Source: Desulfuromonas sp. CSMB_57
Lineage (GTDB): Bacteria; Desulfobacterota; Desulfuromonadia; Desulfuromonadales; Syntrophotaleaceae
Length of the DNA: 64,000 nucleotides
Direction: 5' to 3'
Assembly: GCF_020194955.2 (NCBI RefSeq)
Contig: NZ_JAFCIY020000022.1
Coordinates: 1-64,000, forward strand
This document shows, piece by piece, positions 3,684-40,969 of the stretch. The first letter of the stretch is position 1. Each line of letters opens with the position of its first letter. The position numbers and the translations under genes are program-made. The notes below the pieces were generated by a model that had not been told where the DNA came from, made no database searches, and was given only the letters and a program-made list of their open reading frames with translations.

Positions 3684-4916
<1,233 letters not shown>

Positions 4917-4965
4917 AGAGTTCTCCTTAATTGTCTACATAGACACCGGGATGACAGGTGCGAGT

Positions 4966-5769
4966 TTACTTCAGGCCGAGAATATCCTGCATATCGTAGA
5001 GGCCGGGCGCTTGCCCGGCGAGCCATAGTGCGGCCCGCATGGCGCCCCGGGCAAACATGTCGCGGCTCATGGCGCGATGCGTGATTTCGATGCGCTCCCC
5101 CATGCCGATGAAATAGACCGTATGCTCGCCGACGATATCTCCGCCGCGGACAGTCTGCATGCCGATTTCGTCATGGGTGCGGGCACCGCACATCCCTTCG
5201 CGATGATAGACCGCACTGGCCTGATAATCGCGGCCGAGGGCATCGGCGACGATCTCACCCATGCGCACGGCGGTGCCGCTCGGCGCGTCCTTTTTCTTGT
5301 TATGATGCAGTTCGACGATTTCGACATCGAAACCGTCCCCCAGTACCTTGGCCGCGTCCTTGAGGATCTTGAAGCAGGCATTGACGCCGACGCTCATGTT
5401 GGGTGCCAGCACCACCGGAACGGTTTGAGCGAATCCTTCAACCTGGGTCCGTTGTTCCGGGGTAAAGCCGGTGGACCCGATGACGATGGCCTTGCCCAGA
5501 CGAGCGCAGGCAGCCAGGTTTTGCAGCGATACCTCGGGGAAGGTGAAATCGATGAGGATGTCGGCTGCCTGCAAAACCCGGTCTCGATCAGCGCACACGA
5601 TTACGCCGAGAGGCCCGCAGCCCGCCAGGCTGCCGGCATCCTGGCCGAGTCGGTCATGGGTGTGGTGCTCCAGGGCGCCGGTAAGCTGCAAACCCTCGGT
5701 TTCCTGAATGGCGGCGATCAGACGGCCGCCCATACGTCCGGCTGCACCGTTGACTGCAATGCGGATCAT
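4966..5769 (-). CDS. dapB: 4-hydroxy-tetrahydrodipicolinate reductase
   Basis: Second diaminopimelate-specific step: NAD(P)H-dependent reduction of the DapA product to tetrahydrodipicolinate in the cytosol. The 267-residue protein has the nucleotide-binding GAAGRMG (8-14). It also has the catalytic and substrate block ELHHNKKKDAPSGTA (153-167), with the catalytic His pair 155-156 and Lys159. It sits between dapA (30 bases upstream) and dapL (49 bases downstream) on the same strand. The start at ATG 5769 is unambiguous because the Rossmann strand begins at residue 2. Confidence 0.97.
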   Translation of the reverse strand: MIRIAVNGAAGRMGGRLIAAIQETEGLQLTGALEHHTHDRLGQDAGSLAGCGPLGVIVCADRDRVLQAADILIDFTFPEVSLQNLAACARLGKAIVIGSTGFTPEQRTQVEGFAQTVPVVLAPNMSVGVNACFKILKDAAKVLGDGFDVEIVELHHNKKKDAPSGTAVRMGEIVADALGRDYQASAVYHREGMCGARTHDEIGMQTVRGGDIVGEHTVYFIGMGERIEITHRAMSRDMFARGAMRAALWLAGQAPGLYDMQDILGLK

Positions 5770-5799
5770 GGTTCCTCCCTATTTGTTGGTCGTCTTCCG

Positions 5800-6681
5800 C
5801 TAGCTGTCCAGCAGGCCGTGACGTTGGAGAACCTCGGTCAGTTTCGCCAGGTTTTCGGGCTGCAGGGGCACCAGCGGCAGGCGCAGATGCGGGCCGCATT
5901 TGCCCATCAGGGCCGCGGCGGTCTTGACCGGGGCGGGATTGGACTCGATGAACATGGTCTGGTGCACTTCCAGCAACTGCAGATGGATCCGGCGAGCGTC
6001 TTCCCAGCGACTTTCGCGGATGGCCACGACCATGGCCTTGACCTGAGCCGGCATGATGTTGGCGGTTACCGAAATGACCCCTTTGCCGCCGCAAGCCATC
6101 AAGGGCAGGGTGAGGAAATCGTCGCCGGAGAACACATCGATTTTGTCGCCCGCCTTGGCGATGATCTCGCTGGCCTGGGTGAGATCCCCGGAGGCTTCCT
6201 TGATGCCGATGATATGGGGAATTTCGGCCAGGCGCACCGTGGTGGCGGCGGTCATGTTCATGCCGGTGCGACCCGGGACGTTATACAGTACCTGGGGGAT
6301 GCTCACCTGCTCGGCGATGGCCTTGAAATGCTGGTAAAGGCCCTCTTGGGTGGGCTTGTTGTAATAGGGTGAAATAAGCAATACGCCGTCGGCACCGATC
6401 TGCTTGGCCTGACGGGTCAGTTCGATGGCTTCGGTGGTCGAGTTGGAACCGGTGCCGGCCAGGACCGGAACACGCTTGTTGACCTGCTCGACGCAGGCAC
6501 GAATAACCTGGCTGTGCTCCCCATGGTCGAGGGTCGCGGATTCTCCGGTCGTGCCGACCGGAACGATTACATCGGTGCCGTTCGCAATCTGAAACTCGAC
6601 GAGTTGGCGAAAGGCATCCTCGTCCCATCGCCCGTCCTCCTGGAAGGGGGTGATAATGGCAACCATGGATCCTTGAAACAT
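5800..6681 (-). CDS. dapA: 4-hydroxy-tetrahydrodipicolinate synthase
   Basis: Condenses pyruvate with aspartate semialdehyde, the entry step of the DAP/lysine branch. This is a TIM-barrel Schiff-base enzyme of 293 residues. Substrate loop GTTGES is at 43-48, the catalytic tyrosine is in YNVPGRTG (Y133), and the Schiff-base lysine is K161 in GIKEASG. It lies 72 bases after lysA, and ends 30 bases before dapB. Lysine feedback, common in this family, cannot be judged from sequence alone. Confidence 0.97.
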   Translation of the reverse strand: MFQGSMVAIITPFQEDGRWDEDAFRQLVEFQIANGTDVIVPVGTTGESATLDHGEHSQVIRACVEQVNKRVPVLAGTGSNSTTEAIELTRQAKQIGADGVLLISPYYNKPTQEGLYQHFKAIAEQVSIPQVLYNVPGRTGMNMTAATTVRLAEIPHIIGIKEASGDLTQASEIIAKAGDKIDVFSGDDFLTLPLMACGGKGVISVTANIMPAQVKAMVVAIRESRWEDARRIHLQLLEVHQTMFIESNPAPVKTAAALMGKCGPHLRLPLVPLQPENLAKLTEVLQRHGLLDS

Positions 6682-6753
6682 GATAGGGGCCTCCCGTGAA
6701 TTGAGGGCGCCGCTGCCGCCGTGACAGGCCGGCGGCAGGCGGCAAGATGGGGT

Positions 6754-8007
6754 TTACAGTCCGGCGGGTATTTGTTCGCCCCGAATCAGGTCGGCGAAGG
6801 ACTCGCGCTCGCGCACCACCAGGATCTGGTCGCCTTTGACCATGATTTCCGGGACCCGGCAACGACTGTTGTAGTTGGAACTCATGGTAAAACCATAAGC
6901 GCCGGCCGAGGTGACGGCCACCAAATCGCCCTGCCCAAAATCCGGAACTTCCCGATCCTGAGCGAGGAAATCTCCGGACTCACAGATGGGGCCGACTACA
7001 TCGGCCAGCATGGTGCCGGTGGTGGAGCGCTCCACCGCTTCGATACCCTGGTAGGAACCGTACAGGGTGGGGCGGGTCAGGTCGTTCATGGCCGCATCGA
7101 CGATGACGAAGTTCTTGGCTTCTCCATGTTTTACATACAACACCTTGGTCACCAGAATGCCGGCATTACCGGTCAGAACCCGGCCCGGCTCGAAAATCAG
7201 GGTCAGATTCAACCCGCGGGTGGCGGCGATGATGGCCTGGGCGTAGTCGGCGGGGCTGGGCGGCTCTTCGTCCTTGTAGGTAATGCCGAGTCCGCCGCCG
7301 AGATCCAGATAGCGGATGGCAAAACCCTCTTGCTGCAGAGATTCCACCAGTTCCCGGACCTTGGCGATGGCATCGACGAAAGGCGAGAGTTTGGTCAGCT
7401 GGCTGCCGATATGGCAGTCGACGCCGATGACTTCGAGGTGCGGCAGTTGTGCCGCATGCCGGTAGTCCTCCAGGGCGCGCGCAATGTTGATGCCGAACTT
7501 GGCCTTTTTCATGCCGGTGGAAATATAGGGATGGGTCTGCGGATCGACGTCCGGATTGACGCGGATGGCGATGCCCGCCTTCTTGCCCAACTGACCGGCG
7601 ACGCGGTTGATGGTCTCCAGTTCCTGGGTCGATTCGACATTGAACATCAGGATGTCCGCTTCCAGGGCGGCCGCGATTTCCTGCTCGGTTTTCCCAACGC
7701 CGGAATAGACGATCTTGCGCGGATCGCAGCCGACCTGCTGGGCGCGGAACAGTTCGCCGCCGGAGACGATATCGAATCCGGCGCCGCCGTTCACGAAGGT
7801 CTTCAGGACCGCCAGGTTGCTGTTGGATTTAATGGAATAGCAGACCAGGTGTGGTACCGAGGCGAAGGCGGCGGTGAACGTCGCCAAATGGTGGCTGAGG
7901 GTGGCGTGAGAGTAAAGATAAAACGGGGTGCCGACCTGCTCGGCAATTTTTCTGACCGCGACCTGCTCGCAGTACAGATCGTTGCCTTGGTATTGAAAGT
8001 GGTTCAT
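6754..8007 (-). CDS. lysA: Diaminopimelate decarboxylase
   Basis: Final step of lysine synthesis: PLP-dependent decarboxylation of meso-DAP. It is a fold-type III enzyme of 417 residues. The PLP lysine is K60 in CYSIKSNSN. The glycine-rich phosphate loop is LGGGLGITY, and the CESGDF motif carries the catalytic cysteine from the partner subunit. It follows the small lipoprotein gene and precedes dapA, so transcription probably continues from the arginine genes. The DAP epimerase dapF, needed to supply meso-DAP, is not in this window. Confidence 0.97.
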   Translation of the reverse strand: MNHFQYQGNDLYCEQVAVRKIAEQVGTPFYLYSHATLSHHLATFTAAFASVPHLVCYSIKSNSNLAVLKTFVNGGAGFDIVSGGELFRAQQVGCDPRKIVYSGVGKTEQEIAAALEADILMFNVESTQELETINRVAGQLGKKAGIAIRVNPDVDPQTHPYISTGMKKAKFGINIARALEDYRHAAQLPHLEVIGVDCHIGSQLTKLSPFVDAIAKVRELVESLQQEGFAIRYLDLGGGLGITYKDEEPPSPADYAQAIIAATRGLNLTLIFEPGRVLTGNAGILVTKVLYVKHGEAKNFVIVDAAMNDLTRPTLYGSYQGIEAVERSTTGTMLADVVGPICESGDFLAQDREVPDFGQGDLVAVTSAGAYGFTMSSNYNSRCRVPEIMVKGDQILVVRERESFADLIRGEQIPAGL

Positions 8008-8878: not shown

Positions 8879-10270
8879 TCAGTTCCTTGACCGGTGGGCC
8901 CGTTCCTGCCTGGCCCGCGCGATTTCCCGGGCGACCGCTTCTCTAGCCGTGCCGCCGGTGGCGCGCCGGGCGTCCACGGAAGCCTCCAGGGTGATGTGAG
9001 CGAAAATGTCCTCCTCGATGGCCGGGCTGAAGGACCGGAACTCGTCCAGGGACAGTTCTTCGATGAGTTTGTTCCGCTCCAGACAGTAGCGCACGGTTTT
9101 GCCGACGATTTCGTGGGCATCGCGAAAGGGGATGCCCTTGCGCACCACGTAATCGGCGACATCCGTCGCGGTGGAGAAGCCTTTGGCCGCCGCCAGTCGC
9201 ATGGCTTCCGCCCGGACTTTCATCTCGGCGATCATGGCGGAGAAAATTTTCAGGCTGCCCTTGACCGTGTCGATGGTATCGAACAGGGGTTCCTTGTCTT
9301 CCTGCATATCTTTGTTGTAGGCCAAGGGCAGGGCTTTCATGACGGTCAGCAGGCTCATGAGGTTGCCGTAGACCCGCCCGGTTTTGCCGCGCACCAGTTC
9401 CGGGACATCCGGATTTTTTTTCTGCGGCATGATGGAGCTGCCGGTACAGAAACCGTCCGACAGTTCTATGAAGGCGAAGTCGGCACTGGACCAGAGGATC
9501 AGTTCCTCGGCCAGGCGCGACAGGTGCATCATGATGATGGCGCCGGCGCTGCAGAACTCCAGGGCGAAATCCCGGTCTGAAACCGAGTCCAGGCTGTTGC
9601 GGGTCACGCCCGAAAATCCAAGTTGCTCGGCGACATACTCCCGATCGATGGGAAACGTGGTCCCGGCCAGGGCGCCGGCCCCCAAGGGCATGATGTTGAG
9701 CCGTTCAGCCAGGTCCCGGAGCCGCCCGGCATCGCGCTGCAGCATTTCATAGTAGGCCATCATGTGATGGGCGAAAAGAATTGGCTGGGCGGTCTGCAGG
9801 TGGGTGTAACCCGGCATGATGACGCCGAGGTTGGCCTCCGCCTGGTCGAGGAGGGCCTGCTGGACATCCGCCAGGTGGTCGGCCACGGCCCGAACTTCGT
9901 CGCGCAGGTACAGCCGCACGTCCAGCGCCACCTGATCGTTGCGGGAGCGCGCGGTATGCAGTTTGCCGCCGACGGATCCGATGCGCTCGATGAGCCGCGC
10001 TTCGATGTTCATGTGGATGTCTTCCAGGCCCACGGAAAACTCGAACCGGCCCTGCTCGATGTCAGCCAGAATGCCTTCCAACCCGGCGATGATGGTCTCT
10101 GCCTCATCCGCGGCGATGATGCCTTGCCGGGCCAGCATGCGGGCGTGGGCCATGGAACCCTGGATATCATAACGGTAGAGGCGTTGATCGAAATCGATGC
10201 TGGCGGTGAAGGCCTCGACAAAGGCATCGGTGGGTTGGGTGAAGCGGCCGGCCCAGGGCTTTTTGCTCAT
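8879..10270 (-). CDS. argH: Argininosuccinate lyase
   Basis: Last step of arginine synthesis, splitting argininosuccinate into arginine and fumarate. It belongs to the fumarase/aspartase superfamily and has 463 residues, the usual length. The signature [11 protein letters not shown] is at 277-287 with the catalytic serine loop. TARSRNDQ (107-113) and GYTHLQ, with the general-acid histidine H157, are also present. It lies 88 bases downstream of argG, with a 12-bp inverted repeat in the gap, and its stop is 5 bases from the lipoprotein start. Confidence 0.97.
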
Positions 10271-10310
10271 GATTCAACGTGCTCCGTAATGTGCGGTGGT
10301 TGCGGCGAAC

Positions 10311-10338
10311 GGCCCGGCTTTCCAATGAAAGCCGGGCC
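10311..10338 (-). repeat. 12-bp perfect hairpin between argG and argH
   Basis: GGCCCGGCTTTC (10311-10322) and GAAAGCCGGGCC (10327-10338) form a perfect 12-bp stem with a 4-base loop in the argG-argH gap. No run of T follows on either strand, so it is not a classical terminator. It could act in mRNA processing or partial termination. Confidence 0.7.
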
Positions 10339-10358
10339 GGCGATCGAGAGGGCGCGAA

Positions 10359-11582
10359 TCAGCAGCCGCGCTTTTTCATCATCTGGCTGCGAATGCGCAG
10401 ACGCAGGGCATTGAGGCGGATGAAGCCTTCGGCATCGGCCTGGTTGTAAACCTGATCCGCCTCGAAGGTAGCGACTTCCGGGTCGAACAGGCTGTCCGTA
10501 TCGGATTTGCGCCCGACCACCCGGCAGTGCCCTTTGAAGAGTTTGACCCGGGCGACGCCGTTGACGGTCTGCTGGGTTTGGTCGATGAGGGTCTGCAGGG
10601 CTTCCCGCTCCGGTGCGAACCAGTAGCCGTTGTAGACCATGGTGGCGTAGCGCGGGATCAGAGAGTCACGCAGATTGAGCACCTCGCGGTCCATGGTAAT
10701 CTGTTCCACACCGCGGTGGGCTTCCTCGAGAATGGTGCCGCCCGGGGTTTCATACACGCCCCGGCTCTTCATGCCGACAAAACGGTTTTCCATGATGTCG
10801 GCCCGACCGATGCCGTGTTTGCCGCCCAGGGCGTTGAGATGCGCCAGCAACTGGGCCGGCGACAGGGCCTCGCCGTTAATGGCTACCGGGTTGCCGCGGT
10901 GGAACTCGATCTCCACATATTCCGGCTGGTCGGGAGCCTGTTCCGGATTGACGGACAGCAGGTACATGTCTTCCGGCGGCTCGGCCCAGGGATCTTCCAG
11001 GATGCCGCCCTCAAAGGAGATATGCAGCAGGTTGCGGTCGCTGCTGTAGGGCCGGGCTTTGGTGACCGGTACCGGAATGCCATGTTTCTCGGCATAGGCG
11101 ACCAGGGACTCGCGGCTGTTCAGAGTCCATTCACGCCAGGGAGCAATGATCTTGATGTCCGGTTTGAAATGGAAATAGGTCAGCTCGAAGCGGACCTGAT
11201 CATTGCCTTTGCCGGTAGCGCCGTGGGAAACGGCATCCGCCTCTTCCGCCAAGGCGATTTCCATCTGCTTTTTGGCGATGAGCGGTCGGGCGATGGAGGT
11301 TCCCAGGAAGTAGCGGCCTTCATAGACGGCATTGGCGCGGAACATGGGAAAGACAAAATCGCGTGCGAATTCCTCGCGCAGATCTTCGACATAACATTTG
11401 CTGGCGCCGGTATTGCGGGCCTTTTCGGGGATGCCGTCGAGTTCCTTGCCTTGGCCGACATCGGCGGCAAAGCATACGACCTCGCAGCCGTATTCTTCGA
11501 TGAGCCAACGAACGATGATGGAGGTGTCCAACCCTCCGGAATAGGCCAGTATCGCCTTTTTTACAGCGCCCTTTTTCGACAT
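10359..11582 (-). CDS. argG: Argininosuccinate synthase
   Basis: Joins citrulline and aspartate with ATP to form argininosuccinate. It is an N-type ATP pyrophosphatase of 407 residues with the PP-loop AYSGGLDTS at 13-21. [12 protein letters not shown] is the conserved citrulline/aspartate-binding block, and [10 protein letters not shown] is the C-terminal signature. It lies 97 bases after the RDD-protein gene and 88 bases before argH. The start codon at 11582 follows a clear purine-rich site (AAGGAG). Confidence 0.97.
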
Positions 11583-32420: not shown

Positions 32421-35312
32421 ATGTTCCGTATTGCTGTGCTGGTCTTGCTGTCCCTGCAGTTGCTGGCAGGTTGTATGTTGTGCCCGGCGCGTCCCATGCC
32501 GCCTATCAGGGAAGCCTGGTGGCTGGATGGACGCTGGGCCCATGAAGCAAGCTCCCTCGTCCCCCACGAAAAAGCGGTCTTCGGGCGCCTGCCCAACGGC
32601 TTTCGCTACGTGATTCTGCCCAACCGTAAACCGGAAGGCCGGGTGGCCCTGCATCTGAATGTCCAGGTCGGTTCTCTCATGGAGCAGGCGCACGAACTCG
32701 GTGTGGCGCATTTTTTGGAGCACATGGCCTTCAACGGTTCCCGGCATTTCGCGCCGGGCGAGCTGATTCCCTTTTTCCAGCACAACGGCATGGCCTTCGG
32801 CCAGGATCTGAATGCCCATACCGGGCCGCAGGAAACCGTCTACAAACTGAATATTGCCGGCGGAGACTCGGATAACTTCCATACCGCCCTGCAGTTTTTG
32901 CGGGATGTGGCTGACGGCCTCGATATCCAACCGACTCAAGTGGAAAGGGAGCGGGGCGTCATTCTGGCGGAAAAAGCCGCCCGGGATTCCATCGACAACC
33001 GGGCCGCCGGCCGTCTGCGTAAAAAGCTGTATGCCGGAACCCGCTTCAACCAGACGCCCATCGGAGAGGAACACATCATCAAGACTGTCAGTCCCGAAAC
33101 CCTTCGGGATTTTTATCGCGCCTGGTATCGGCCGGAATTGATGGTCCTGGTGGTGGTCGGGGATCTGGATCCGGCAGCAGTCGAGGAGCGCATCCGGGAA
33201 GCTTTCCAGGACTTCCAGGCGCAGGCACCTAGAAGGGCGTTGGCCTCCTGGGGCGATGTCGGGCTGAACGGAACGGTTCCCTTTCACGATTTCTACGAAG
33301 CGGAAAGCACCTTTGTCCGTTTGAGCGCCCTGCATCCCCGGGTCTGGCAGGACGATACGCCGGAATCCCGGCGGCAGTGGCTGCACAACAGCATGGCGGC
33401 GGGCATTCTGTCCCGGCGGCTGCAGCAGATGGTGGCCGACGGCCGTGCACCCTTTCTGCGGGGCGTGGTCCAAAACAGCCGGGCTTACAACCTGCTGCCC
33501 TCCCTGCATGTGGTCGGCGTCTGCCCGGCGCCGAACTGGCCGGAGACCTTCCGGGTTTTGCAGGATGAGTTGTCCCGCGTCCTGGAGCATGGCTTTCTGG
33601 CCGAGGAGGTGGAGCAGCTGCGGACCGAGTGGATGCGTGGTTTTGAAACCCGGGCCCGCAACGAAGGGAACCTGCTTCATGACCAAGTGGTGAAGGCCGT
33701 CGTTCATGGAGTGAACAGCAACCAGGTGCTCCAATCCGCCGGCCAGGCCCTCGAGTATTACCGTCCGCTGTTGCAGGAGGTCACGGCAGCGGATTTGCAT
33801 GCCGCTTTTTCGGGCATGTGGCAGACCGAACACCGGCTTGTCGCGGTAACGGGCAATGCCGACCTGGGGCCCGACGCGGACCAGAAGTTGCTCGACATGT
33901 GGCGTGACGGCCGGCAGCGTGCCATGGTCGCGCCGGTCGATCCGGACGCCGTGGGGTTTCCCTATCTGGACGTTCCGGCCGTGGCCGGCCGGGTCGCGGC
34001 GCGCCGTTCGCTACCGGTTCCGGGTACGGACTTGCTGCTGCATGAACTGGACTTCGCCAACGGCCTGCGGGTGCGCCTGTTGCCCACGCCCTTTCAGCAG
34101 GGGCGGGTTGCCCTGGACTTGCATCTCGGCGGCGGGCACAGCGGCGTGACCGACGACCAGTTCGTCGCCGCCCGCCTGGCTTTCATGACCGACGCGCAAT
34201 CCGGATTCGGCCGCCTCAGCGCCTTGGATGCCTTGCGCCTGCAACGGGCGACGGGGGCCGGCGCCGGCAGTCGGTTGGCCCGGCATGCGACCATCATTTC
34301 CAGCGAAGGGGAAACGGCCGATCTGGCGGGCATGCTGGAAGCCATGTGGACCCAGTACCGGGAGCCGGAGATAGCCCGGGAAGACCTGGAAAACCTGCTT
34401 AAGACGCTGGCCATGGCGGATCTCAAACGGGGGCGGGACGTGCCCTCGGTGGCGGAGGATGAAAGCGCCCGGTTTTTTTATGGCGATGGATTGCGCACCC
34501 GGCCCTTGACCGAAGCCATGGCCCGCGAGCAGGAGTTGACGGTCCTGCGCCGGCATTTGCAGGCCCTGCATCGGGGCGGCGATCCGGTGTTGAACGTAGT
34601 GGGGGATTTTTCTCCCGAGGAGGCGGAGGCTCTTGTTGCCCGTTTCTTCGGCGCCGAAGAGGTGACCTACCCGGCTGCCGTGCCGGCGGATTATGCCCAT
34701 GTTCCGAGTTTTCCCGCGCCGGCCCATCGGCAGAAAACCCTTCAGGTCGAGGCCGAGCTCGGTCAGGCCGAGTTGCGCCTGGCCTGGCTGCGCCGCCTGG
34801 AGGATGTCGGCGACCGCAAGGCCCTGGCCGTCCGCCGCCTGTTGGCGGCCGTCATCAGGGAGCGCCTACGGGTGCGGGTGCGGGAGGACCTGGGCATGGT
34901 GTATGCGCCGGACATGTTCTATCGCTATACGGAGGACAATGGCCATGGATTCTTCCTGGTTCGCATCGCCACCCGGCCCGACCATCTTGCCCGGTTGCGC
35001 GAGGTGGTGGAAAAGGAGGTGGCGAAGGTGGCGGCCCACGGGGTCACGGCGGAACAACTCGAGCGCCAACGCCTGCCCATGCGGCGCAACTGGGAGAAAT
35101 CCAGAACCGAGAATCGCACCTATATCCATCTGCTGAATGCCATGGCCCGCAACCAGCATCCCCACCTGCAGTGGACCGCCGAAGCGGCCGACGTTCTGGA
35201 TTCCATCACGGTGGAGGACCTCAATGGGGAGGCGCGCGTTGTTTTCAGGGATGAAAACCTGGCGGTGCTGCAGGTGACCGAACCGATCCAAGGAGAGTCC
35301 AAAGAACCATGA
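32421..35312 (+). CDS. M16 family zinc metalloprotease lipoprotein
   Basis: Large M16 (pitrilysin/insulinase-type) protease of 963 residues, predicted to be lipid-anchored in the envelope: the signal peptide ends LQLLAGC (Cys18). The inverted zinc motif is HFLEH (H97, E100, H101) with the third ligand E177 in VERERGV, 76 residues later, so the first half is catalytically intact. The second half (about 525-960) is an M16-like repeat without HxxEH, giving the two-lobed clamshell typical of enzymes that degrade unfolded peptides of limited size. Its last 4 bases overlap the ABC ATPase gene (ATGA), so the two are co-translated. A TonB-dependent receptor lies 3 genes downstream. It may digest an imported or exported peptide. 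Confidence 0.9.
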   Translation: MFRIAVLVLLSLQLLAGCMLCPARPMPPIREAWWLDGRWAHEASSLVPHEKAVFGRLPNGFRYVILPNRKPEGRVALHLNVQVGSLMEQAHELGVAHFLEHMAFNGSRHFAPGELIPFFQHNGMAFGQDLNAHTGPQETVYKLNIAGGDSDNFHTALQFLRDVADGLDIQPTQVERERGVILAEKAARDSIDNRAAGRLRKKLYAGTRFNQTPIGEEHIIKTVSPETLRDFYRAWYRPELMVLVVVGDLDPAAVEERIREAFQDFQAQAPRRALASWGDVGLNGTVPFHDFYEAESTFVRLSALHPRVWQDDTPESRRQWLHNSMAAGILSRRLQQMVADGRAPFLRGVVQNSRAYNLLPSLHVVGVCPAPNWPETFRVLQDELSRVLEHGFLAEEVEQLRTEWMRGFETRARNEGNLLHDQVVKAVVHGVNSNQVLQSAGQALEYYRPLLQEVTAADLHAAFSGMWQTEHRLVAVTGNADLGPDADQKLLDMWRDGRQRAMVAPVDPDAVGFPYLDVPAVAGRVAARRSLPVPGTDLLLHELDFANGLRVRLLPTPFQQGRVALDLHLGGGHSGVTDDQFVAARLAFMTDAQSGFGRLSALDALRLQRATGAGAGSRLARHATIISSEGETADLAGMLEAMWTQYREPEIAREDLENLLKTLAMADLKRGRDVPSVAEDESARFFYGDGLRTRPLTEAMAREQELTVLRRHLQALHRGGDPVLNVVGDFSPEEAEALVARFFGAEEVTYPAAVPADYAHVPSFPAPAHRQKTLQVEAELGQAELRLAWLRRLEDVGDRKALAVRRLLAAVIRERLRVRVREDLGMVYAPDMFYRYTEDNGHGFFLVRIATRPDHLARLREVVEKEVAKVAAHGVTAEQLERQRLPMRRNWEKSRTENRTYIHLLNAMARNQHPHLQWTAEAADVLDSITVEDLNGEARVVFRDENLAVLQVTEPIQGESKEP

Positions 35313-36196
35313 GTATGATCATCGAATGTCAAAACCTGCGGCACGCCTATGGCGAAAAGGACGTGTTGCACGACCTTTCCTTCACCGTGGAGGCGGGCGG
35401 CGTATTCGGGCTGTTGGGTAAAAACGGCGCCGGCAAAACCACCACCATCGACATTCTGATGGGGTTTTTACGCCCGACGGGCGGCCATTGCCGGGTGCTG
35501 GGGGAGGCCAGTCATGTCCTGTCGCCGCCGACGCGCCGCCGCATCGGTCTGCTGCATGAGCGGTTTATCCAATATGACTTCATGTCCGTCGCCGAACTCG
35601 AACGCTATTATGCCGCGTTTTATCCGAAGTGGGAGCGGGATATCTTCATGGAACTGGTGAGTCGGCTTCAGGTGCCGCCCGACCGCAAGCTGGCCCGCAT
35701 GTCCTGCGGCCAGCGTTCGCAGGTGGTACTGGGGCTCATCGTGGCGCAGCGGCCCGATCTGATGATCCTCGACGATTACAGCATGGGGCTCGATGTGGGC
35801 TATCGGCGGCTGTTCATCGAATTTTTGGGGGATTATGTGCAGAGGTATGGCACCACCATCCTGATCACCTCCCATGTCGTCCAGGAACTGGATCCCATCA
35901 TCGACAACCTCATCATCCTCGATCAGGGCCGCATCTGCGTATCGGGCAGCAAACAGGCCTTCATGGATAATTTCAAGTGCTTCAGTTTTGAGCGGTCCCC
36001 CGCCTCGGAAGGGCTTGCGGCGGGCGAACTGTTGGTGCGTCTGGAACACGCCCGTGAGCAAACCATCGTGCATGGCTTCCTGTCCGGGGAGAGGTTGTCC
36101 GCCCATTTACAAGACTGCGGCGTTCCGCACGAAACCCTGCAGCAAATCCCGATGAATTTTGAAGATGCCTTTATCGGCTTGACCGGAAAGTACTGA
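35309..36196 (+). CDS. ABC transporter ATP-binding protein with altered catalytic site
   Basis: Single nucleotide-binding domain of 295 residues, similar to ATPases of ABC-2 type exporters. Walker A GKNGAGKTT is at 37-45 and the switch His is H189 in ITSHV. The signature is MSCGQ (131-135) in place of LSGGQ. Walker B ends LMILDD, so the usual catalytic Glu is Asp156. These changes suggest slow or regulated ATP hydrolysis. A C-terminal extension of ~75 residues follows the ATPase core. It overlaps the protease gene by 4 bases and is 4 bases from the membrane-protein gene. Confidence 0.9.
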   Translation: MSMIIECQNLRHAYGEKDVLHDLSFTVEAGGVFGLLGKNGAGKTTTIDILMGFLRPTGGHCRVLGEASHVLSPPTRRRIGLLHERFIQYDFMSVAELERYYAAFYPKWERDIFMELVSRLQVPPDRKLARMSCGQRSQVVLGLIVAQRPDLMILDDYSMGLDVGYRRLFIEFLGDYVQRYGTTILITSHVVQELDPIIDNLIILDQGRICVSGSKQAFMDNFKCFSFERSPASEGLAAGELLVRLEHAREQTIVHGFLSGERLSAHLQDCGVPHETLQQIPMNFEDAFIGLTGKY

Positions 36197-36200
36197 CCGA

Positions 36201-38201
36201 ATGATTATGCACCCACCCCTGCATGCATTGTTGCTGAAAGAACGCATCAAATTGCGTCTCGGTGTCTGGCTCCTGCCCCTGTTGCTGCTCTATGCCGCAG
36301 CGGACAGCTTCCTCATTCTGAAGGCCATTCAGCGGTCTCACGGCAGTTTCGGTCTGATCCTGACCCTGCTGAGCAAGGAGCCGATGTTCTTCGGCGGTTT
36401 TCGGGTGCTGTTCCTGGCCGGCGCTCTGCTGGCCTTTTTGCAGATCTGGCCGGAGGTGCAGGGCAAGCGCCTGCGCCTGCTGTTTCATACTCCCGTCCAT
36501 CCCGAAGGATTGGCCGGCATGACCCTGGCCTGTGGGCTGGGGCTCATGCTGCTGACCAACCTGGGGGCCCATCTGGCCCTGGCCGGCAATCTGCTGATTT
36601 TTCGGGTGCCGGTCGACATCATCACGCCGGTGCTCCTGACCTTGGCGACCTGGAGCCTGCTCAGCCTGGTGTGCTACCTGGGGACCGCGGCGTTTTTCTA
36701 CCATGACGGTTTGGTCGTGCGCGGCTTTGTCTTGCTCTCCTGCTTTGCCATGTATGGTTTCATGGGCCGTCCGACCGGCTACGGTTTGCAGGCGCCCAGT
36801 CTCGGTTCCCATGCCCTGCTGGTACTGCTGTTCCTCGCTTTGGTCTTTTTCGCCTGCCTGCGCTTCATGAGCGCACCCGACCAGCGGCTCGGCTACCGCT
36901 GGGCCCGCGCCGCCAGTCTGCTGCTGTTCATCCTGTCCCTGTGTGCGGTACTGCCCAATCTGTACTGGCGCATGGCGGCGCCCAAGCTGGTGCGCCACAA
37001 GCTCTTCTACAGCCCGGTCCATGAACAATTCGTCATCTCAAAACAATTCCCCGACAAGGTTGTCGGCCCGGTGGGCACGGACCGCAGCCGCATCGAACTG
37101 GAAGACGGCACGCCGCTGAGCCGCAGGCAGATGTTTTTCGCCCTGCCGACCCTGCATGCGGACAGCCTGCTGAAGTGGAACGCCTTTCCGGACACCATTC
37201 AGGGCCTCCGCCTGACTCCGGAGCAGGTCCGCAACAGTTGGCAGTACCTGACCTTCCATCCGCGCGACTGGAATGCGCCGGAGCCCCGCCTGCACCTGTT
37301 GTTGGAAAGCGAACCGGAGGGGGCCAAGCTGGAGCTGCCGACGGATTTCTTCCGTCTGACCGCCGCCCGCCACGAGTTGGAGTTTATCGTTCCCCAGGCC
37401 GGCCGTGTCGACCGCGAAAAGAGCCGGCGCTTCACCGCGGCCCTGCGCGAGGCCGGCTTTGAGTATCCGGTGCAAGCATTGGCCGGCAATCCCGATCCCC
37501 GCAAGGATTATGACGAAGGCTACCTGTTGGTCGATGCCCGCAATCGCCTGTTTCAGCTCAAGATGGTCCATGGGGCGCCGGTCTGCCGTCCGGGCGGAAT
37601 TCTGGAGGCAGGACCCGTGCGGGGCCTGGTGGTGGCGGAAAGCCGGCGCCGGGAAATGCTCGGCTTCGTCATCACCGAGGGGAAGGTTTACGCTGTCATG
37701 CAGAAGGATCTGTCTTTGCACCCCATACCCGTTGCCGGCTTCGATGCCGATGTGACCAGTTTCACTCTGTGGGCCGACGCCATCGGCAAATACGTCATCA
37801 GCCAGGATGCGAGGGATAACTACGGCGGTAGTCTGGGACGGGCCATGACCCCCGACTTTGCCATCCATCGGGAATATGCGCAGCCTCTGGAGCCGGACGA
37901 TATCCGGGCGCTGCGGCGTCGGGAGCAGTTCGCCTCCCTGCTTCTCCCCTGGCGCTTGACGCAGCAGGACGGCACCCGCACCTTTGATCACCTGCGTCTG
38001 GAGCCTCCGCGGTTTGTGGGGCTGGCGGCCGGCGGCAACCTGTTTTGTCTGCTGTTGTTGGTCGCCCTCGGGCGTTGGAAAAGGACCTCTTTGCACTACT
38101 GGGAATGCGGCTTGGTCGGAGTTTTCGGGGCACCTGCCCTGGCGGTGCTTTGGCTGGAAAAGCTTCCCGTGTCAAGCACCAGGCTCGCTTTCGGTGGTTG
38201 A
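36201..38201 (+). CDS. Membrane protein, probable partner of the ABC ATPase
   Basis: Unrecognised integral membrane protein of 666 residues. I see about seven N-terminal hydrophobic segments (near 20-40, 64-83, 104-126, 137-163, 169-187, 202-222, 236-254). A large soluble region of ~350 residues follows (about 258-605), then two C-terminal segments (608-624, 636-653). The N-terminal part resembles an ABC-2 type permease in layout; the soluble part contains LSRRQMFFALP and ends RLEPPRFVG and looks beta-rich. Spacing of 4 bases to the ATPase gene argues for one transporter. Whether it exports a peptide, pulls a substrate from the envelope, or only senses is unknown. Confidence 0.8.
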   Translation: MIMHPPLHALLLKERIKLRLGVWLLPLLLLYAAADSFLILKAIQRSHGSFGLILTLLSKEPMFFGGFRVLFLAGALLAFLQIWPEVQGKRLRLLFHTPVHPEGLAGMTLACGLGLMLLTNLGAHLALAGNLLIFRVPVDIITPVLLTLATWSLLSLVCYLGTAAFFYHDGLVVRGFVLLSCFAMYGFMGRPTGYGLQAPSLGSHALLVLLFLALVFFACLRFMSAPDQRLGYRWARAASLLLFILSLCAVLPNLYWRMAAPKLVRHKLFYSPVHEQFVISKQFPDKVVGPVGTDRSRIELEDGTPLSRRQMFFALPTLHADSLLKWNAFPDTIQGLRLTPEQVRNSWQYLTFHPRDWNAPEPRLHLLLESEPEGAKLELPTDFFRLTAARHELEFIVPQAGRVDREKSRRFTAALREAGFEYPVQALAGNPDPRKDYDEGYLLVDARNRLFQLKMVHGAPVCRPGGILEAGPVRGLVVAESRRREMLGFVITEGKVYAVMQKDLSLHPIPVAGFDADVTSFTLWADAIGKYVISQDARDNYGGSLGRAMTPDFAIHREYAQPLEPDDIRALRRREQFASLLLPWRLTQQDGTRTFDHLRLEPPRFVGLAAGGNLFCLLLLVALGRWKRTSLHYWECGLVGVFGAPALAVLWLEKLPVSSTRLAFGG

Positions 38202-38330
38202 GAGGATGGACGGTATCGTCGGCAGTTCTTTCCCATTACAACAAAAAGGGCACGTTTTTCAGCGGTGTGTGGACAAATTTTACCCGGAACAGATAAATGT
38301 ATTTTTTGAAAAACGGCATTATAGATGTGA

Positions 38331-38346
38331 CCGGCATATATGCCGG
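38331..38346. promoter_or_regulatory. 16-bp perfect palindrome upstream of the TonB-dependent receptor gene
   Basis: CCGGCATATATGCCGG is fully self-complementary and lies 106 bases upstream of the receptor ATG, just after a TATAGA (38320-38325). It is a plausible operator. No recognised riboswitch sequence is seen in this 250-base gap. Confidence 0.5.
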
Positions 38347-38452
38347 GGTAGGCTCGGATCTGCCCTGGCGACTTCTTAAGGTTGTGTTTCGACCCTGAAG
38401 TCAGTATTCTGTCAGCCTTTGCAGCAGAGTGTCGGCTCCAGGGGTGGTTGGG

Positions 38453-40969
38453 ATGAAGCGTTTTCTCGTTCTGGTATTTCTGCTGGCTTCCGGTCGCCTG
38501 ACGGGGACGGCCTGGTCGTCCGACGGCGGTGTGCCGCCGGCGCTTATTGCCTTGGACGAGGCGCGTTTCGGCGATGCCGAGGAAGAGGAAGGGTCGGGCT
38601 ACCGGGTCGAGCCGGTGGTGGTGCAGGCGACGCGCATCGGTTCGGACAAAAACACCGTGGCCGGCCGGGAACTGGAGATGATGCCCTCCGCCACCGGTTC
38701 CATCACCGAGGCCCTCAAGGGCATGTCCCAGGTGCAGTTCAGCAACGAACGTCAGTCCAGCCGTACTTTGGGAGAAATCGCCCCTCCCAGGATTTCCATC
38801 TTCGGTGCCAAGCCCTACGAAAACAATTTTCTCATCGACGGCATGAACGTCACCAACACCCTCAATCCGTCGGGTTTCGACGATTCCGCCGGACCCAACG
38901 ACCTGATGGTGGGCGGCGGCGATTCGACCATCTTTTACGACACCCACCTGGTGGAGTCCATCACCGTCCATTCCAGCAATGTGCCGGCGGAATTCGGCGG
39001 CTTCCTGGGCGGGGCGGTGGACGCCAAACTGCGCGATCCGCGTGCCGACCGCTGGTATTTCACGGTGTCTGGGCGCTATACCGAAGATGGCTGGTTCAAG
39101 CTGCGCGATGTCGACCAGGAATCGGAACTGCCCGATAATCAGCCGCGCTTTTCCATCTACCAGGCCGCCGTCACTGCCGAAGGCCCGCTGACCGATAATG
39201 CCGCCATTCTGCTGTCGGCGTCTCGAAGGCAATCCCGCATTCCCCTGAAGCGGTCGTTGCGCAGCGGTTTGACTCTGGATGATGACCAGCGGCGCGGCAA
39301 TGACAACTATTTCGCCCGCCTGCTGCTGACGCCCACCGCGGCGCTGGACATCAAGCTGGACGCCACCTACGCGCCCTACGAAGAACTGCGCTGGCGCAGA
39401 AGTTGGCCGGACAGCGATTGGAAGATCGAAAATCGTTCCTGGCGTTTCGCCGGTCAGGCCGAATACCGGATGCAGCCCGGGTTGCTGGATACCAAAGTCG
39501 CCTTTGCCCGACACGGCTTCAGCCGCGACAGCGCCGGCACTCTTCGCGAGAGCCTGACGAATCTGGGAGACAGCAGCCAGAACGATCAGCGTGGCGGCGT
39601 TGGCGATGCGGACATCACCACCAAGGAGATCCAGACTGCCGCCAGTTTCAAGTCCAATCCCCTGCGTCATGGCAATGTGCGTTGGCACTATGCCTTGGGG
39701 CTGGAATTCGCTCACCGGCACACCGATTCCTGGAACGAGGCGGCAACCTCGGATACTCTGGTTCTTGCCCGTCCGGTGGCGGTGCCGCTGCCGAGCACCC
39801 TGATCAGCACCCGCACCATTGCCAATTACCCTGAAGTCACTCAGGCCCAACACATGAGCAGCTACGGGACTTATCTGCAGGGCGAGATGGTTTGGCGGCG
39901 CCTGATGCTCACCCCCGGCATGCGTGTCGATTACGACAGTTTTTCCGAAAACCTGGATGTGGCGCCGCGCTTCAAATTGGAAGTTGACGTCTTGGGCACG
40001 GGAGAATTTCGCATAATTGGCGGCGCGAATCGCTATTATGGGCAACAACTGCGGGGCTACGCCTTCAGAAGACATCGCCCATATTCCCAAAGTCAGACCA
40101 GGGTGTTATTTGGCGGCAGCGAAGTGACGACCTTTTCGAATCAGGCGGCCAAAAACTACCGCAGCGACGGTTTGGATACGCCCTATTCCGATGAACTGAT
40201 GGGCGGGGTGGCCGGAACCGTGGCCGGATTCGATTACAGTCTCGAATTTGTCCATCGCAAGCACCAGGATCAAATCATCAGCCAGACCGAGGACAATACC
40301 ACCTATTATCTGACCAATAATGGCCGCAGCAGTTTTGACGGGCTGACCTTCACCTTGGGCCGGGAGTGGCGAACCGCGGGCTTCGGGCACCATGTTTTCG
40401 CCCTGAGCGCCACCAAGTCGCGGACCCAAACCTTCAACGGCAGCTACTTCTCACAGATTTTCGTCGACAGCCTTTCCAACGGATTCCTTTACAACTACGA
40501 TAAGGTCTTCTACAACGGCTCCTACATCTCCCGCTCCGGCATTCCCGCCGAGGATTTCAATGCACCCCTGGTCCTGGCGTTGACAGTGGGCAGCAATTTC
40601 TTCGGCGATCGTCTGCGTCTGCAGTCCGTGACCCGTTGGCGCGATAATGCCAAAGGGCTGTTGGTCGACGCCCGCATCAGCGACGATACCCCCTACGGCA
40701 CCACCTCCGGTCGCAACGATCGCACCAGCAGCCAATGGATCAATGCAGACGGCGGCTATTCCGACGCCTACAAAAAGGGCAGCATTGCCGGCGGGTTGGT
40801 GACGGATCTCACCGTCGAGGTGGATGCGGTCAGGCACGGCCGCTACGGCCTGACTCTCATCGCCGAGGTTTTCAACCTGTTCAACAGCAGCATGGAAACC
40901 AGCGTCGCCGAAGGCGGCGCCCGCATCAGCGGGAGGGGTTTTTACGCCGGCCTGCGGGCCAGTTTCTGA
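38453..40969 (+). CDS. TonB-dependent outer-membrane receptor
   Basis: Ligand-gated 22-strand barrel receptor of 838 residues. The signal peptide spans about 1-22. A TonB-box-like EPVVVQATR lies near 53-61, and the plug domain (about 62-190) has PRISIFGAKPYENNFLIDGMN-type segments. The barrel ends in a C-terminal phenylalanine (LRASF), the BAM recognition signal. ATG 38453 is chosen because it directly precedes the signal peptide and follows GGTTGGG; the upstream in-frame start at 38429 adds eight residues. The substrate is unknown. It follows the M16/ABC operon after 251 bases and may have its own promoter. Confidence 0.93.
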   Translation: MKRFLVLVFLLASGRLTGTAWSSDGGVPPALIALDEARFGDAEEEEGSGYRVEPVVVQATRIGSDKNTVAGRELEMMPSATGSITEALKGMSQVQFSNERQSSRTLGEIAPPRISIFGAKPYENNFLIDGMNVTNTLNPSGFDDSAGPNDLMVGGGDSTIFYDTHLVESITVHSSNVPAEFGGFLGGAVDAKLRDPRADRWYFTVSGRYTEDGWFKLRDVDQESELPDNQPRFSIYQAAVTAEGPLTDNAAILLSASRRQSRIPLKRSLRSGLTLDDDQRRGNDNYFARLLLTPTAALDIKLDATYAPYEELRWRRSWPDSDWKIENRSWRFAGQAEYRMQPGLLDTKVAFARHGFSRDSAGTLRESLTNLGDSSQNDQRGGVGDADITTKEIQTAASFKSNPLRHGNVRWHYALGLEFAHRHTDSWNEAATSDTLVLARPVAVPLPSTLISTRTIANYPEVTQAQHMSSYGTYLQGEMVWRRLMLTPGMRVDYDSFSENLDVAPRFKLEVDVLGTGEFRIIGGANRYYGQQLRGYAFRRHRPYSQSQTRVLFGGSEVTTFSNQAAKNYRSDGLDTPYSDELMGGVAGTVAGFDYSLEFVHRKHQDQIISQTEDNTTYYLTNNGRSSFDGLTFTLGREWRTAGFGHHVFALSATKSRTQTFNGSYFSQIFVDSLSNGFLYNYDKVFYNGSYISRSGIPAEDFNAPLVLALTVGSNFFGDRLRLQSVTRWRDNAKGLLVDARISDDTPYGTTSGRNDRTSSQWINADGGYSDAYKKGSIAGGLVTDLTVEVDAVRHGRYGLTLIAEVFNLFNSSMETSVAEGGARISGRGFYAGLRASF

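Follow-up and report, generated by a model that had tools for sequence, protein, structure and literature searches.

A FusA-like receptor, a PqqL-like protease and a DUF4857 ABC module in Desulfuromonas sp. CSMB_57: a likely variant of protease-associated import

Genes of the locus

The window (the whole stretch of DNA analysed, 64,000 nucleotides of contig NZ_JAFCIY020000022.1 from Desulfuromonas sp. CSMB_57) contains four plus-strand ORFs (Table 1), in which an earlier sequence-only reading had seen an M16 protease, an ABC ATPase, an unusual membrane protein and a TonB receptor. The Pfam search confirmed this gene set (Peptidase_M16 1.6e-21, M16_C 1.6e-30, ABC_tran 1.2e-19, DUF4857 1.5e-67), with the Plug match of the receptor (E 7.3e-05, 23.7 bits) lying marginally below its cut-off of 23.9, and the four genes and their described features are genuine. 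The protease and ATPase ORFs share a 4-base overlap, 4 bases separate the ATPase gene from the DUF4857 gene, and 251 bases lie between the DUF4857 gene and the receptor, counted from the ATG, which is a more likely start than the GTG because the signal sequence MKRFLVLVFLLASG begins there. Genes for an MscS-type channel, an SSB (opposite strand) and RNase J lie 3' of the receptor. No TonB homologue is among the four genes, just as the sequence-only reading had it; the genome holds four TonB_C matches, which sit on other contigs, and five Plug matches.

Table 1. Features of the locus, in positions of the window
Feature	Position	Strand	Basis
PqqL-like M16 zinc protease, 963 aa, predicted lipoprotein	32421-35312	+	ORF, Pfam, PDB search
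ABC ATPase, 295 aa	35309-36196	+	ORF, Pfam
Fused membrane protein (permease part and DUF4857 part), full ORF	36201-38201	+	ORF, Pfam
Permease part, N-terminal, ABC-2 fold like NosY/CcmB	36201-36887	+	structure model; boundary set by us
DUF4857 part: one helix, mostly beta soluble domain, two C-terminal helices	36879-38201	+	Pfam, model
FusA/YddB-like TonB-dependent receptor	ORF 38429-40969 (GTG), likely start ATG 38453	+	ORF, PDB search

At the gathering thresholds of Rfam, two tRNAs were the sole matches in the 64-kb window, and no site near the four genes matched the Fur-box consensuses TGATAATNATTATCA and GATAATGATAATCATTATC even when 3 mismatches were allowed. The spacer between the DUF4857 and receptor genes carries a perfect 16-base palindrome, CCGGCATATATGCCGG (38331-38346), which could be an operator; barring copies of the same place, it has a single exact copy in the window and the fetched loci.

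For the protease, the best match in PDB was PqqL (3.7e-50, residues 46-937), followed by the M16 entry 9ldy (1.8e-45) and by 6b03 (2.9e-27) and 6brs (4.3e-27), which we take to be FusC and whose alignments cover chiefly the N-terminal part. The zinc site HFLEH is intact, with its first residue at 97 and glutamates 78 and 80 residues further on, and the signal sequence carries the lipobox LLAGC, so the earlier description as a lipoprotein with an intact zinc site stands. The protein is probably anchored to the membrane via lipid, as judged from this motif. Among the other 13 M16 proteins of Fus loci (11 from named loci plus those of L026 and L027), only the two of Desulfoluna (L033, L036) looked lipoprotein-like by eye; L030 and L041, with their over-extended starts, could not be judged, and the pattern matches of L040 and L042 resemble ordinary signal peptides. 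This FusC/PqqL-type M16 protease, with its HxxEH site, is encoded in one cluster with a receptor whose only PDB matches at E<=1 are FusA (1.3e-66) and YddB (1.1e-43), which places it in the FusA class of TonB-dependent receptors known from Fus and other protease-associated import systems. Its plug aligns closely with that of FusA, and a counterpart of the extended plug loop of FusA exists, but is shorter.

The membrane protein had been described as having nine segments and a large soluble region. This fits the models, in which a permease-like part of six helices precedes a single helix, a soluble domain of mainly beta structure and a C-terminal pair of helices. The permease and DUF4857 halves were aligned and modelled separately; a joint alignment misplaced permease rows onto the wrong half. 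The permease model (pLDDT 92.3) superposes on NosY with Z 14.9 (204 aligned of 229 residues, rmsd 3.7), on CcmB with Z 14.3 (204 of 229, rmsd 4.2) and on ABCG1 with Z 14.3. It has a fold of the NosY/CcmB kind, to which ABCG chains score about equally; since ABCG1 equals CcmB, the likeness is one of fold class and not of family, and does not fix the function. Foldseek alone gave no match for this model under E 0.18. Most members of the ABC-2 fold class are exporters or mechanical ABC proteins. The DUF4857 (PF16149) match, which spans 37002-37817, is far over its cut-off (228.2 bits vs 25), and for the model of this part (pLDDT 90.8) neither Foldseek (best E 1.1e-4, TM-scores <0.3) nor VIA-align (best Z 7.6) found a confident fold match among the families listed. 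Many of the fold rows are beta-propellers that cover only part of the domain, so that "propeller-like" would be a loose term, and a phmmer match of the DUF4857 part to a designed propeller (E 0.038) was discounted as evidence.

The ATPase is unusual, as the sequence-only reading had remarked: its signature is SCGQRSQ, and its Walker B reads LDDY, where the usual form is LDEP, with Asp 156 where the catalytic Glu normally stands. In its family the signature is S-x-G-Q-R-S-Q and the Walker B L-D-D-[YF]; the LDD occurs in all 92 ATPase ORFs (88 distinct), which had been found by a scan that relied on the signature and one other motif, Walker B not among them. Presumably the ATPase is a homodimer, in which case Asp would stand on both sites. 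ABCA3 came first in PDB (1.3e-36), and the best bacterial match by whole-chain name was NosF (8.3e-27), whose Walker B has a Glu (E154, per the PDB title) in contrast to the Asp of the window. In NCBIfam the nearest models by score are export types (PmtA, DrrA and NodI), all far under their cut-offs.

The DUF4857 module and its neighbours in other genomes

A scan with the ATPase alignment gave 279 relatives, of which 80 named loci were kept. It turned out that the ATPase is followed by a permease and DUF4857 in 76 of the 80; of the other four, three run into a contig end, and the fourth is L108, where no permease or DUF4857 gene could be recognised up to 10 kb from an ATPase of the window's family (10001-10885). 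Among the loci read, a clear fusion of the permease and DUF4857 parts is seen in the window and L007, and most of the others encode them separately, as proteins of about 222 and 420 aa. In Desulfobotulus alkaliphilus (L040, 11345-15235), one ATPase is followed by two consecutive permease-DUF4857 pairs.

Nearly all well-flanked loci (37 of the 38 among the 80 whose flanks reach 4 kb or more in front and 3 kb or more behind) contain a TonB-dependent receptor or FeoB: 13 a FusA-like receptor, 16 a generic receptor and 8 FeoB, the single locus with neither being L102. Distance served as an internal control, the neighbour HMMs having been built from clusters of the same loci and the clusters named by a Pfam scan of one representative each. 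With flanks of up to 10 kb, the nearest gene lies within 4 kb for FeoB in 18 of 18 loci, for the FusA-like receptor in 15 of 15 and for the generic receptor in 27 of 30. TonB-dependent receptors are numerous in Bacteroidota, so that FeoB and FusA are the stronger neighbour signals. By its own terms, the sequence-only reading would be refuted if the three-gene operon occurred mainly with unrelated partners. Partners other than the Fus type are indeed more numerous, but these (FeoB and other TonB-dependent receptors) are mostly of the iron-uptake type.

M16 genes are present in 14 of the 80 loci, and 11 of them are PqqL-like (at least 175 bits to a query M16; L050, L064 and L065, at 76-88 bits, were not counted). 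All 11 loci with a PqqL-like M16 also contain a FusA-like receptor, which is found in 15 of the 80 overall. The gene order of the window, M16-ATPase-permease-DUF4857-receptor, recurs in L026, L027, L035 and L066, and nine further named loci combine the PqqL-like M16, the FusA-like receptor and the module in different orders. With these loci, FusA/M16 linkage beside another kind of inner-membrane partner is extended to Desulfovibrio and Desulfoluna types, Campylobacterota and Magnetospirillum. Besides, SBP_bac_5 genes occur in eight of the loci read, with two BPD_transp_1 permeases alongside in L026, L027, L030 and L066; such an adjoining Opp/Dpp-type peptide importer fits an uptake of cleaved peptides. 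FecR genes were met in five loci, four of which are Fus loci (L031, L032, L038 and L042). In L042, from a Campylobacterales bin, the FusA-like receptor (4329-7075) is split into two open frames of 486 and 384 aa, by either a frameshift or an assembly error.

The ATPase tree follows these neighbours. For three neighbour labels (Fus, FeoB and receptor) it requires 6 changes, compared with a mean of 31.5 after shuffling, and none of 200 shuffles was as low as 6, kinship being ignored. The tree, made by a quick method, has 88 rows, 69 of them labelled and 19 left uncounted; L019, L020, L021 and L023 were omitted as the same contigs as L043, L080, L049 and L037, to judge from the lengths of the contigs and their gene layout, and the labels of the window and of L031, whose M16 is overlapped by an over-long ATPase frame, were assigned by hand. 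The window ATPase falls in a marked set of 12 rows, 10 of which are Fus-linked, and the Fus-linked rows L037, L040, L069 and L079 fall apart from the main Fus-linked group. The nearest relative of the window ATPase is that of L007, from the window's family (76% identical), which adjoins FeoB and has no receptor or M16 beside it, so partners have been exchanged or lost at least there. In the receptor tree (23 rows, without L023 and without receptors shorter than 700 aa, which are fragments or split frames in L034, L035 and L042), the window groups with two unlinked receptors, those of G039 and G048, inside a marked set of seven whose remaining four are M16-linked.

Distribution in relatives and in the phylum

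DUF4857 was found in 4 of 58 relatives. Of 395 genomes from the phylum, 12 have DUF4857, 12 have a FusA-like receptor (E<=1e-10) and 37 have the window-type M16 (E<=1e-25), 26 of these with at least 289 bits. The window's genome is included in each count, and the M16 search scored at most two candidates per genome, so misses are possible. The receptor, DUF4857 and M16 are all present in four genomes (G000, G093, G166 and G386) and linked in three of them, the M16 of G093 lying on a separate contig; receptor and DUF4857 are adjacent in all four. With kinship ignored, the co-occurrence of receptor and DUF4857 (4 shared, 12 each, 395 genomes) has a Fisher p of 0.0002, and that of either with the 26 M16 genomes a p of 0.005. 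The other 8 of the 12 genomes with the receptor, all of the window's order, are without DUF4857 and M16 at the thresholds used.

In the 13 genomes of the same family the picture is different. Ten have a match to the FusA-like receptor (two of them fragmentary, G003 and G012), and M16 was found at E<=1e-20 in none of the 13, which include no positive control, with the query that matched 37 of the 395 phylum genomes. DUF4857 occurs in three (G003, G006 and G007) with the receptor not adjoining, the contigs of G003 and G006 being short. The complete gene set is exceptional within the window's own kin. One outcome that the sequence-only reading had named as refuting it, a receptor gene unlinked in relatives, does occur in the close relatives. 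A distance of about 6 kb separates FeoB from the FusA-like receptor in G001, G002 and G007, which keeps the iron link and not the protease link. The receptor there (L177, L178 and L176, respectively) stands beside an LVIVD beta-propeller protein and a hybrid histidine kinase, a layout for which Pfam was run on L176 alone.

Comparison with known systems and a candidate role

The sequence-only reading had likened the locus to the Fus system of Pectobacterium (FusA, FusB, FusC and FusD). This resemblance holds by sequence, with the receptor pointing to FusA/YddB and the protease to PqqL, and supports a Fus-like reading: in both cases a FusA-like receptor and a two-halved M16 protease are encoded together. 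The window differs in that its genes include neither a TonB-like FusB nor a fused ABC transporter of the FusD/YddA type, in whose place stand a separate ATPase and the ABC-2 permease-DUF4857 protein, and in that its protease is closer to PqqL than to FusC and is a predicted lipoprotein. The Ydd/PqqL system of Escherichia coli (YddA, YddB and PqqL) provides the best protease match and the second receptor match; however, YddA is a FusD homologue according to passages of PMC5095587 and the ABC module of the window is of another kind, and PqqL, which passages of PMC6793856 describe as periplasmic like FusC, is there a soluble protein. The same passages call the make-up of protease-associated import clusters variable, so the absence of FusD excludes a strict Fus operon and not the wider group. 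By its predicted gene products, the locus appears Fus-like at the outer membrane and in the periplasm, and a strict Fus system is excluded, FusB and FusD being absent. Passages of PMC5095587, which define FusB, FusC and FusD, mention delta-proteobacterial homologues, and the main text of PMC6793856 has no occurrence of "ABC", "Desulfo", "Sulfurospirillum" or "oligopeptide". The new element here is the DUF4857 module occupying the place of FusD; our literature search found no paper tying DUF4857 to FusA or M16.

A DUF4857 locus of Bacteroides thetaiotaomicron, BT3625-BT3633, is raised 37- to 128-fold in low iron according to passages of PMC10434189. It shares with the window a DUF4857 protein, a hypothetical protein, an ABC ATPase and a TonB-dependent receptor, and differs in its PepSY and DUF4876 genes, its generic receptor and, as far as the gene list in those passages goes, its lack of an M16. 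The layout of L106 from Bacteroides faecalis matches that list, and the hypothetical protein BT3626 would be the permease. The module of the window also resembles NosDFY/CcmABCD, in its permease fold (NosY, CcmB) and in its ATPase (NosF), and differs in having a membrane-bound DUF4857 partner whose fold found no confident match. The known roles of NosFY and CcmAB are in metal and heme maturation in the periplasm.

We consider it likely that the locus is a variant of the Fus and Ydd/PqqL type of protease-associated import, with the ABC-2 DUF4857 module as its inner-membrane part, and by analogy with the systems known to take up ferredoxin the imported substrate would be a small, probably iron-bearing, protein. 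What the analysis shows directly is what the genes are, that their linkage recurs, to which fold class the ABC module belongs and that its ATPase groups with Fus-linked ones; direction of transport, substrate, the part of iron and the work of the module are what we infer, as follows. By homology, the FusA-like receptor would bind a small folded protein on the outside of the cell and let it through to the periplasm, powered by a TonB encoded elsewhere, and the PqqL-like lipoprotein would cut it, freeing cofactor and peptides. The ATPase, the NosY/CcmB-like permease and DUF4857 may then use ATP to act on the periplasmic side, where their most likely task is to detach iron or a cofactor or to pass it along, in analogy to NosFY/CcmAB; iron would enter through a separate carrier such as FeoB. 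Such ATP-driven iron or cofactor work in the periplasm is suggested by the FeoB, low-iron receptor and FusA/M16 neighbours together with the NosY/CcmB-like permease. The missing M16 in the 13 same-family genomes, the absence of both DUF4857 and M16, at the thresholds used, from 8 of the 12 phylum genomes with the receptor, the FeoB-linked L007, the lack of a Fur box, the likeness to ABCG1 and the DUF4857 part without a fold match count against this explanation.

It is unlikely that the module is instead an importer that replaces FusD and itself brings the iron, heme or Fe-S cofactor, once freed, into the cytoplasm, for its permease has an ABC-2 fold near NosY, CcmB and ABCG, of a class in which exporters and mechanical proteins predominate, and it also adjoins FeoB, an iron carrier in its own right. 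In favour of an importer, the module occupies the place of FusD, which passages of PMC6793856 and PMC5095587 hypothesise to import an Fe-S cluster, and in an incidental reading a FusD-like fused transporter was not noticed beside the module in L030, L031, L038, L066 and others. The ABC-2 fold and the export types among the nearest NCBIfam models, all far below cut-off, would better suit a true exporter of an M16-processed peptide or metallophore, the receptor retrieving the loaded product. This is quite improbable given a receptor of the FusA/YddB class, a protease of the PqqL class and a module that pairs with FeoB and with M16-free receptor/DUF4876/PepSY loci; no precursor gene was noticed in passing, and the RiPP-like export that the sequence-only reading had offered as its alternative belongs to this weak idea and has nothing in its favour at the locus. 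That the receptor is a chance neighbour of a three-gene operon working alone, as the 251-base gap and the M16-free receptors of close relatives, lying apart from DUF4857, might suggest, is very improbable, since the same gene set recurs in other families and phyla and the receptor and DUF4857 stand side by side in all four of the 395 genomes where they meet (Fisher p 0.0002, kinship ignored).

Beyond protease-associated import at this locus, we tentatively propose that the ATPase-permease-DUF4857 trio might form an unrecognised class of ATP-driven periplasmic iron-handling machines, with an Asp in Walker B and three iron front ends (FeoAB; receptor/DUF4876/PepSY; FusA/M16), which in FusA/M16 loci would take the place of FusD and perform cofactor release or hand-over. 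Very few systems for the uptake of whole proteins as food have been worked out in detail, and DUF4857, a domain of unknown function, is here connected with iron uptake by neighbours of several independent kinds. Its role could be tested in Bacteroides thetaiotaomicron, where the locus is iron-responsive according to passages of PMC10434189.

Two further arrangements were seen among the loci. The DUF4857 module lies with FeoB, a DUF4198 gene and a gene for a small protein (about 109 aa), and often with FeoA, in L019/L043, L039, L044, L057, L067, L081, L092, L094, L104 and L105, and no description of this recurrent iron cluster was found in the literature searched. A lipoprotein-like protein of about 1,070 aa is encoded directly 5' of the FusA-like receptor in L033, L036, L037, L040, L041 and L134-L138; it has no Pfam family at E<=0.001, and one member has a PPR match at 0.009.
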